A stretch of 35,662 bases of DNA from contig JALHNQ010000035.1 of NCBI GenBank assembly GCA_022843405.1, positions 1-35,662 on the forward strand. Direction: 5' to 3'. Positions 255-6,839 of the stretch are shown here, in pieces. The stretch comes from Methylocystis sp. (GTDB lineage Bacteria; Pseudomonadota; Alphaproteobacteria; Rhizobiales; Beijerinckiaceae). Numbering within the stretch: position 1 is the stretch's first letter; each line of letters begins with the position of its first letter. The position numbers and the translations under genes were made by a program. The notes under the pieces are model-generated. The model did not search any database, was not told the origin of the DNA, and worked only from the letters and a program-made list of their open reading frames with translations.

Positions 255-386
255 TTACTCGCAGATTGCGTATCCGAAGCAAAAGTCATCGCCGCTAGGC
301 GACGGACGCGAGAGCATGGTCGTCGCGCTCGCAACGCTTGCGGCGAACATGAATAGCATCAGCACATACAAAACCAAATTGCGCAT
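255..386 (-). CDS. Tiny exported peptide, CFGYAIC motif (copy 1)
   Basis: A 43-residue ORF. It starts MRNLVLYVLMLFMFAASVAS, a hydrophobic run ending in a signal-peptidase-like ASVASA site, and finishes DDFCFGYAICE. A GGTGGGG stretch upstream of ATG 384-386 could be the ribosome binding site. If cleaved after ASA, the mature peptide is about 22 residues with two cysteines spaced C-x5-C, which could form a disulfide. Its last residues nearly repeat those of the minus-strand gene at 545-691 (CYGYAICQ), which is the main reason to believe it is coding. A sigma-EcfG-type promoter sits about 100 bases upstream. I do not recognise the family. Function unknown; it may instead remain membrane-anchored. 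Confidence 0.6.
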   Translation of the reverse strand: MRNLVLYVLMLFMFAASVASATTMLSRPSPSGDDFCFGYAICE

Positions 387-492
387 GACGGGCCCCACCT
401 ACCGCCTATCGCTGAAAATTTGAAAGGCGCGGCGTTCCTCGTCTCTGCTCTTTCGAGCTTTGACATGGGACGCGTCGGCCTTCCATGAAGTA

Positions 493-518
493 AACGCAAT
501 GATGGGCGCGCGCGTTCC
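493..518 (-). promoter_or_regulatory. EcfG-type (general stress sigma factor) promoter
   Basis: Read on the minus strand: GGAAC (518-514), 17 bases, CGTT (496-493). This matches the known alphaproteobacterial sigma-EcfG consensus GGAAC-N16/17-CGTT at every specified base. It points at the tiny gene 255-386 and would give a leader of roughly 100 nt. It lies just downstream of the paralogous gene 545-691, so it would drive copy 1 independently. Inference: copy 1 belongs to the PhyR/EcfG stress regulon. Confidence 0.6.
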
Positions 519-544
519 ACGGAACTTGCGCAAAGCATGAAAAT

Positions 545-691
545 TTATTGGCAAATCGCATAACCATAACAAGCGTCGGAAGGATTAGCTTTGGCTGACG
601 ACGCGAGATAAGCGCCGGCGCCGGCGAATTCCAAAAAGAGAACGCACACTACCAGGCCTAGCCAGCCCATGCTTGTCGTCGGACGCATCAT
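545..691 (-). CDS. Tiny exported or membrane peptide, CYGYAIC motif (copy 2)
   Basis: A 48-residue ORF. I chose ATG 689-691 because GGAGGTGAAATC precedes it at good spacing; a longer upstream reading has no such site. Residues about 9-30 are hydrophobic (GWLGLVVCVLFLEFAGAGAY) and are followed by SSAKA, a possible signal-peptidase site. The protein ends NPSDACYGYAICQ. The end matches the neighbour at 255-386 (CFGYAICE) at six of eight positions, including both cysteines. The two genes lie head to tail, 158 bases apart. A cleaved product would be about 13 residues. Family not recognised. Alternatives are a single-span membrane peptide or a secreted disulfide peptide. Confidence 0.65.
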   Translation of the reverse strand: MMRPTTSMGWLGLVVCVLFLEFAGAGAYLASSAKANPSDACYGYAICQ

Positions 692-954: not shown

Positions 955-1563
955 TTAGAGCACGCTGACTTTCGTGCCAACCTTCACGCGCTGGTAAAGA
1001 TCGATCGCATCGATGTCGCGCATGCGGATGCAGCCGGAGGAAACGGCCTGTCCGATTTTGTCCGGCTCATTGGTGCCGTGGATGCGATACAGCGTGTCCT
1101 TGCCGTTCTGATAGAGGTAGAGCGCGCGGGAGCCGAGCGGATTGTCGGGACCGCCAGGCAGGCCGCCGGCGTCCGCCGTCGGCTGAAGATGCGGCCAGCG
1201 CTCAAGCATGTCTTTCGGCGGAATCCACCGCGGCCATTCCTGCATGGCGCCGACATAGGCCCGTCCGGTGAACGCCATCGCGTCCTGGCCGGTGGCGACG
1301 CCGTAGCGCACCGCCTTGCCGCCCGGCATGACATAGTAAAGGAACTTCGAGCGATTATCGACGATGATCGAGCCCACGGGCTCGTTCGTCTTGTAATCGA
1401 CGAGGTAGCGTTCGTATTGCGAACTCACCGAGGCTTTCGGGGCGAGCGCCATGAATTCGGCGTCTCGGCCGCTCAGCCTCGGATCTGGAAGGGCCGTTCC
1501 GCCGTTGCATCCTGCGAGCAAGACGGCGACAAGCGCTGACGCCGTCACATATCTGAAATTCAT
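955..1563 (-). CDS. L,D-transpeptidase (YkuD fold) lipoprotein
   Basis: 202 residues. ATG 1561-1563 is preferred over an upstream in-frame GTG (1570-1572) because AAAGGAGT lies 7 bases before it and overlaps the GTG. The N terminus is a lipoprotein signal with lipobox LLAGC (Cys19). The YkuD catalytic domain fills the C-terminal half, with IHGTN (His162) and SSGCIRM (catalytic Cys178). Known family role: formation of 3-3 peptidoglycan cross-links, or attachment of outer-membrane proteins to peptidoglycan, in the periplasm. The lipobox suggests a membrane-anchored form. No neighbouring cell-wall genes. Monocistronic, with a hairpin downstream. Which of the two reactions it performs cannot be told from the sequence. 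Confidence 0.9.
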   Translation of the reverse strand: MNFRYVTASALVAVLLAGCNGGTALPDPRLSGRDAEFMALAPKASVSSQYERYLVDYKTNEPVGSIIVDNRSKFLYYVMPGGKAVRYGVATGQDAMAFTGRAYVGAMQEWPRWIPPKDMLERWPHLQPTADAGGLPGGPDNPLGSRALYLYQNGKDTLYRIHGTNEPDKIGQAVSSGCIRMRDIDAIDLYQRVKVGTKVSVL

Positions 1564-1797
1564 TTGGGGCACTCCTTTCCCGCCGCAAAACTGTCGTTAC
1601 GATTTTCTTATCATGAACTTTGGCGCTGGGATCACGTCTTCGGAATTATTCCCCTACTGTTGCGCCGGCGCCACGCGAACCGGGGCGAGGCGCCCCTTGA
1701 GCTTTACCGTTTCTTTTTCATGGACAGAAAGCCAAGGAAGGCCGAAAACTAATGTTTCGATTAGCATAGCGTCGCCCGCGCGGAGTGCGTCGCAGCA

Positions 1798-6227: not shown

Positions 6228-6839
6228 ATGCTGCTCTATAACACGCCGCTCGCGCCCAATCCGAGGCGGGTCCGCATTTTTCTGGCTGAAAAGAACGTCA
6301 CGATTCCCACACGCGACGTCAATCTCATGGCGCATGAGCACAAGCAGGAGCCCTATTCGGCCGTCAATGCGCTTGAGGAAGTCCCGGCGCTCGTTCTCGA
6401 CGACGGAGCGACGCTTACCGAGTCGGTCGCCATCTGCCGCTATATCGAATCGCTTTATCCGGAGCCGCCGCTCTTCGGGCGGGACGGACGCGAACAGGCC
6501 TTCGTCGAAATGTGGCAGCGTCGGGTGGAATTCCGCCTGTTCATACCGGTTGCAATCGCCTTTCGTCACAGCCATCCGGCGCTGGCGCGGCTTGAATCGC
6601 CGCAGAGACCGGAATTCGCCGAGCTTCAGCGGCCGCGCGCGCAGCAGATGATGCGCTTTCTCGACCAGGAACTCGCCTCGCGCCGCTTCATGGCCACCGA
6701 CGATTTCACCATCGCCGACATCACCGCCATCGTCGCGATGGATCTGACGAAGCTGGCGCGAGTCGAGATTCCTCAAGATCTGCCGCATCTCTCGCGCTGG
6801 CGGGCGGAAGTCTCGGCGCGTCCATGCGTCGTTCCCTAA
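6228..6839 (+). CDS. Glutathione S-transferase family protein
   Basis: 203 residues. The N-terminal thioredoxin-like domain (about 1-78) carries the cis-proline motif EEVPALVLDDG and the glutathione-binding ESVAICRYIE. The C-terminal helical domain (about 85-200) has the conserved FTIADI motif (written DDFTIADIT). These are soluble cytoplasmic enzymes that conjugate or reduce with glutathione. The N-terminal active site reads PNPRRVRI rather than a clear catalytic serine or tyrosine, so the substrate class is unclear. TAA 6837-6839 abuts the ATG of the next gene (6840), so the two are co-transcribed and probably translationally coupled. Confidence 0.9.
   Translation: MLLYNTPLAPNPRRVRIFLAEKNVTIPTRDVNLMAHEHKQEPYSAVNALEEVPALVLDDGATLTESVAICRYIESLYPEPPLFGRDGREQAFVEMWQRRVEFRLFIPVAIAFRHSHPALARLESPQRPEFAELQRPRAQQMMRFLDQELASRRFMATDDFTIADITAIVAMDLTKLARVEIPQDLPHLSRWRAEVSARPCVVP

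Follow-up and report, generated by a model that had tools for sequence, protein, structure and literature searches.

The window (the whole stretch of Methylocystis DNA that was analysed, 35,662 nucleotides long) carries two consecutive tiny genes on the minus strand near its first base. Gene B (positions 545–691; ATG at 691, stop codon 547–545) sits upstream of gene A (positions 255–386; ATG at 386, stop codon 257–255), and their products are 48 and 43 residues long (peptide B, MMRPTTSMGWLGLVVCVLFLEFAGAGAYLASSAKANPSDACYGYAICQ; peptide A, MRNLVLYVLMLFMFAASVASATTMLSRPSPSGDDFCFGYAICE). Both peptides have a hydrophobic N-terminus and closely related C-terminal ends, SDACYGYAICQ in B and DDFCFGYAICE in A. 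The part encoded by the last ten codons, DACYGYAICQ (548–577, minus strand) in B and DFCFGYAICE (258–287, minus strand) in A, is called the tail below. A Shine-Dalgarno-like GGAGGAGGTG, read in the window sequence, precedes the ATG of B. The only cysteines of A are residues 36 and 42, both in the tail, and B of the window has one extra cysteine (residue 16, in LGLVVC), which is not retained in all B peptides. The coordinates, the lengths and the shared motif of these two ORFs are all as described in the first-pass annotation, which was made from the window sequence.

Upstream of B runs an L,D-transpeptidase (YkuD) gene (955–1572, minus strand; Pfam PF03734), a recurrent neighbour that serves here as context only, and beyond it the window contains a histone-deacetylase-domain gene, a TonB receptor and queC. 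Positions 1–118, at the contig break, resemble the end of a mobile element. This repeat is found at 100% identity at nine other places in the genome, several of which lie at contig ends. The assembly breaks there, which accounts for the missing context downstream of A.

The motif is not a chance occurrence. An exact DNA pattern for C[FY]GYAIC has 46 matches in 61 genomes; the 26 genomes with a match are all Methylocystis, and the reversed pattern matches nowhere in the 61. Translation of 45 of the 46 places, and then of the remaining one (L063), showed that all terminate tiny ORFs of this type, which are arranged as tandem pairs or single copies. The genus-limited pattern, the null reversed control, the translated ORFs and the pN/pS ratios given below together rule chance out. 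When the motif followed by one residue and a stop codon was sought in the genome collection, 36 stretches were found, of which 20 are family members. The other 16 (in Helicobacter, Bacilli, Flavobacteriaceae, Methyloligella and others) were dropped as chance, being short or unrelated frames that have no export region when judged by eye.

Searches of Pfam and NCBIfam with three members and of PHROGs with two gave nothing over cut-off. Two NCBIfam matches (E 0.37 and 0.076) are limited to hydrophobic stretches, and profile matches in the PDB at E 0.23–0.26 are not meaningful. The first-pass annotation had known of no described family with this motif, and none has come to light in these four resources. 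The peptides are also not described in the literature searched, a single collection that includes the available parts of PMC6599016, PMC3892343 and PMC9600857. As judged from sequence, this tiny two-gene peptide family is real, narrowly distributed and new, and the function of its tail is predicted only.

Conservation of the tail and distribution of the family

The consensus of the family reads D-x-C-[FYLMA]-G-Y-A-[ILV]-C plus one further residue, and in an alignment of 20 diverse members the D, C, G, Y, A and C of D-x-C-x-G-Y-A-x-C never vary. In a side branch (G003, G008, G020 and G027; loci L104 and L108–L110), the last cysteine is followed by six residues in place of one. The pN/pS ratio of the last ten codons of A is 0.003 (27 distinct sequences) versus 0.57 in the preceding 30 codons, that of B is 0.139 (22 sequences) versus 0.52, and that of a second genus is 0.082 (8 sequences) versus 0.21, the upstream figures being rough because the codons were anchored at the C-terminus without gaps. 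Nine further sequences of other types were left out of this comparison. Synonymous sites in the tail of A are near saturation (pS 0.85), and the sole amino-acid change is I to V in one codon of one sequence. The tail is under extreme purifying selection. The earlier proposal that selection acts on the short C-terminal motif is thus upheld for A and B alike, and both ORFs behave as genes in terms of tail conservation across genomes and pN/pS. A remnant of B with a broken frame and both cysteines lost lies upstream of an intact A in G002 (L022); as the frame is broken, the loss of both cysteines is no evidence for their pairing.

A profile built from 20 diverse members detects homologues in 33 of 39 Methylocystis genomes and in all ten genomes of the second genus, which belongs to the same family (Beijerinckiaceae) and is probably Methylosinus. 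Conservation of the motif in related genomes, set beforehand as a test of the idea, is therefore evident. The six Methylocystis genomes with no match are G007, G025, G033, G034, G013 and G015. Two of these, G007 and G025, are rated 100% complete, so this lifestyle is possible without the peptide. In G025 and G033 the neighbouring membrane gene described below is present, and a rough search of short frames ending in cysteine saw no peptide beside it.

Wider searches returned weak matches. With a narrower profile (A1, E up to 0.1), 84 of 397 genomes of the family matched: 33 Methylocystis, nine of the second genus and 42 others, the last with best matches at E 0.003–0.005. Two of the 42 were fetched (G104, in which the match spans positions 1–40, and G137), and neither has a C-x-G-Y-x-x-C frame. 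Ten other genomes matched in an order-wide sample of 397 and eight in a phylum-wide sample of 299, all at E 0.0016–0.009 and none across the full profile; the two samples overlap, share two of these other genomes and contain only two Methylocystis genomes each. The loci concerned (L145–L154 and L157–L162) hold no C-x-G-Y-x-x-C frame and were rejected as relatives. No relative was found beyond the two genera in these overlapping family, order and phylum samples, and none on the viral contigs and plasmids searched. The distribution across Hyphomicrobiales that the first-pass annotation had marked for a wide search has not materialised, the family being confined to two genera in the samples searched.

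In the stretches compared, the main locus is flanked by the L,D-transpeptidase gene and by a gene for a small membrane protein, which has no Pfam match. The gene after the latter resembles dihydrolipoamide dehydrogenase by eye. The small membrane-protein gene also adjoins the second-genus copies in G263 and G201, and an XerC-like neighbour is found in G227, G263 and G162 (the phage-integrase domain was tested for G263). No modification, transport or receptor gene could be recognised as a constant neighbour among 21 stretches in which genes were called by length. Extra copies in G004 (two, on contigs C7 and C8; L131 and L130) and G014 (contig C52; L143) lie on separate contigs beside a recurring gene set, which by eye includes a cyclase-like, two glycosyltransferase-like and a radical SAM-like gene. 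The radical SAM-like gene was considered as a modification system and dropped, as none is recognised at the main locus.

Regulatory elements upstream of the two genes

A predicted EcfG general-stress promoter of A, GGAAC-N17-CGTT, is located at 493–518 (minus strand), 132 nt before the ATG. Published EcfG promoter boxes are GGAAC-N16-CGTT in Rhizobium etli (PMC3892343) and GGAAC-N17-20-GTT in Sphingomonas melonis (PMC6599016), and the conserved GGAAC-N16/17-CGTT of A matches this published consensus. With one sequence taken per genome, 27 of 28 carry the exact element upstream of A (N16 in 19, N17 in eight), beginning 105–151 nt before the ATG. The one sequence that lacks it lies on a G032 contig, and that genome has 9% contamination. 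The 27 sites have 20 different spacers. Once similar upstream regions are removed, the element is kept in 14 of 15; first-order Markov resamples contain it 0.027 times on average, and the reversed sequences never. There is no enrichment of the pattern in the window's genome as a whole (56 sites versus 57 for the reversed control), so a single site would be weak and the case rests on conservation.

The exact element is absent from all 23 upstream rows of B (22 genomes and one G014 duplicate cut at a contig end) and from all eight rows of the second genus. It is also absent from the side branch (G003, G008, G020 and G027), from A of G032 and from the extra copies in G004, G014, G023 and G162, one of the G162 copies having a near match.

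NepR, the component of the NepR–PhyR system for which a profile search was made, is above cut-off in all 12 genomes tried. In each of the 12, the best NepR locus has the exact element upstream in the right orientation, about 280–360 nt before the NepR domain; the same holds for two of 12 secondary loci fetched (14 of 24 for all loci). Peptide A thus appears, on sequence evidence, to be switched on by the general stress system, although its membership of an EcfG regulon is predicted only, and B falls outside. Of the options in the first-pass annotation, stress induction is hence backed by sequence for A (element in 27 of 28); B does not have the element (0 of 23 rows). The window's genome has four NepR matches (contigs C58, C27, C39 and C22 of G000), perhaps reflecting several EcfG-type sigma factors.

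Stress control of a small hydrophobic peptide would also suit a membrane-acting type I toxin that is silenced by an antisense RNA. Hok and TisB, both type I toxins, are small, possess one hydrophobic helix and are under stress control, and Hok has a periplasmic cysteine. A and B resemble them in size, in the single hydrophobic helix (in the model of A described below) and, for A, in the predicted stress control, and the stress element of A would leave an untranslated leader of about 100 nt. However, leaders align poorly between lineages, selection is stronger on the tail than on the hydrophobic part, and no antisense RNA was seen where scanned, with no Rfam element in positions 1–2000 of the window and no sigma-70-like promoter, the one promoter type scanned for, in positions 1–1700. 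A toxin is thus a very improbable interpretation.

B is preceded by a different element, a 14-bp dyad GTGCG-N4-CGCAC (761–774; 83 nt before the ATG), which is its probable operator. The dyad is exact in 21 of 22 B genomes, has one mismatch in the last (G011) and is found upstream of none of 28 A genes. It is likewise missing upstream of a B-like peptide of G010 (C-A-G-Y-A-I-C). In nine genomes of the second genus, the main copy has the exact dyad in four, one mismatch in four and two mismatches in one, always 88–90 nt before the ATG. This retained position suggests that the main copy corresponds to B. In the tenth genome, G162, the dyad is missing from both copies, which differ from the main one.

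The window's genome as a whole contains 16 sites of the dyad versus three of the control, and the 15 of 16 sites that were read point to no single regulator. One of the sites (contig C43 of G000, positions 6471–6484; L212) lies shortly before another L,D-transpeptidase-like ORF, which may be chance. Neither a regulator that binds the dyad nor a partner of the peptides was found, and no neighbour indicates function.

With the EcfG-type element upstream of A and only the dyad upstream of B, two separately regulated genes deliver one tail. What is observed directly is that the genes exist, that the tail is under selection and that both regulatory elements are conserved.

Predicted export and possible roles of the tail

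The members examined start with a net charge of 0 to +2 and have a run of 13–24 residues in which D, E, K, R, H, Q, N and P do not occur. Each also has at least one AxA-like site, called with a loose rule. In the window, such sites follow residue 21 of A and residue 35 of B. The mature lengths of 22 and 13 residues that were predicted earlier match these sites, but other such sites exist. The AlphaFold model of A (mean pLDDT 70.2, pTM 0.38) contains a helix at residues 2–25 (pLDDT about 86) and a loose tail of low confidence (pLDDT 50–60), which agrees with a signal or anchor segment that leaves a short tail exposed. The peptides are probably exported through this N-terminal hydrophobic segment, which could also be an uncleaved anchor instead of a signal peptide.

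A helix followed by a tail would likewise be compatible with a microprotein that acts like a subunit in an intracytoplasmic membrane complex, such as one around particulate methane monooxygenase, and in the samples the family is restricted to two genera that are methanotrophs as far as they are named. No such complex is recognised nearby (with a minority of the neighbours searched in Pfam), G007 and G025 have no match despite being rated 100% complete, and control by the general stress response would be odd for a housekeeping subunit. We regard this possibility as distinctly improbable.

Alternatively, the tail might be cut off and leave the cell as a small cyclic peptide, a signal or public good sensed by kin. 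In several members an AxA-like site directly precedes the conserved block (residue 33 or 34) and would give a ten-residue product; the near invariance of the ring and the limitation of the family to two genera in the samples searched are in line with this. In A of the window, however, the AxA site nearest to the tail leaves 22 residues and not ten. No transporter or receptor gene could be recognised as a constant neighbour in the 21 stretches mentioned above, with their gene calls by length. Signals usually diversify between species, and the ring does not. A released signal is thus unlikely.

Since the cysteine pair is invariant, we infer that the two tail cysteines form a disulfide bond. Short peptides with cysteines may instead bind metal or be modified by an enzyme, as copper chelators or MNIO products. 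Methanotrophs depend on copper, and the precursors of methanobactin and of bufferins, the latter with signal peptides, are short cysteine-containing MNIO substrates. A and B are likewise short cysteine-containing peptides of methanotrophs, but they have a different motif and no MNIO gene is seen at the main locus. MNIO enzymes (PF05114) are present in 33 of 39 Methylocystis genomes. The MNIO gene nearest to a peptide seen in the genus is about 3.4 kb away (G023), and in G004 and G014 some share a contig with the extra copies, at a distance of 22–28 kb. Against this, the four genomes of the side branch have no MNIO match; two of these are 66 and 77% complete, but G003 and G008 (99 and 98% complete) have the long-tail peptide, so at least this branch can do without an MNIO enzyme. 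Besides the cysteines, Gly, Tyr, Ala and Ile are conserved, which would go beyond the needs of chelation. A metal-binding or modified peptide is quite unlikely on these grounds.

The explanation we prefer, a tentative one with a substantial chance of being right, is that A and B belong to a family of envelope microproteins of methanotrophs, exported or anchored, whose ring-closing tail docks on one partner under stress. By means of the N-terminal hydrophobic segment, the chain would pass through the Sec pathway, so that a short tail ends up on the periplasmic side. Signal peptidase might cut this tail free at an AxA site, or it might stay anchored. With five residues between them, the two cysteines could then be oxidised there, closing C-x-G-Y-A-[ILV]-C into a ring of seven residues; this ring, together with the Asp before it, might dock on one conserved envelope partner. 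The idea of a single docking partner comes from the near-invariant tail that is common to otherwise dissimilar peptides, and a common binding partner outside the cytoplasm seems the simplest account of the shared ten-residue end. A would be supplied when the EcfG/NepR–PhyR general stress response is on, as predicted from the sequence conservation of its promoter, and B via a different regulator reading the GTGCG-N4-CGCAC dyad, so that two inputs would feed one output.

Alphaproteobacterial general stress regulons include many genes that lack a known function, and the EcfG table of S. melonis in PMC6599016 contains numerous hypothetical proteins and a single ‘Predicted small secreted protein’. 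The peptide family supplies one candidate stress gene with a precise core, a near-invariant ring on dissimilar carriers. If there is only one partner for the ring, it would represent a stress output of methane-oxidising bacteria that has so far gone unrecognised; the tail is short enough to be synthesised for a pull-down. A broader view, that Methylocystis and its neighbour genus possess a new class of Gram-negative cyclic peptide effector, in which seven-residue disulfide rings from several separately regulated precursors are released or displayed under stress and recognised by a single receptor, is unlikely.

Entericidins, paired small lipoproteins, are tandem tiny exported peptides that are associated with a stress sigma factor. 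When compared by description, A and B are similar to them in being two tandem tiny peptides with predicted export and, for A, a predicted stress sigma factor. A lipobox has its cysteine just after the signal segment. Unlike entericidins, A and B have no lipobox by eye (the residue before Cys16 in B of the window is V), and their conserved cysteines are at the C-terminal end.
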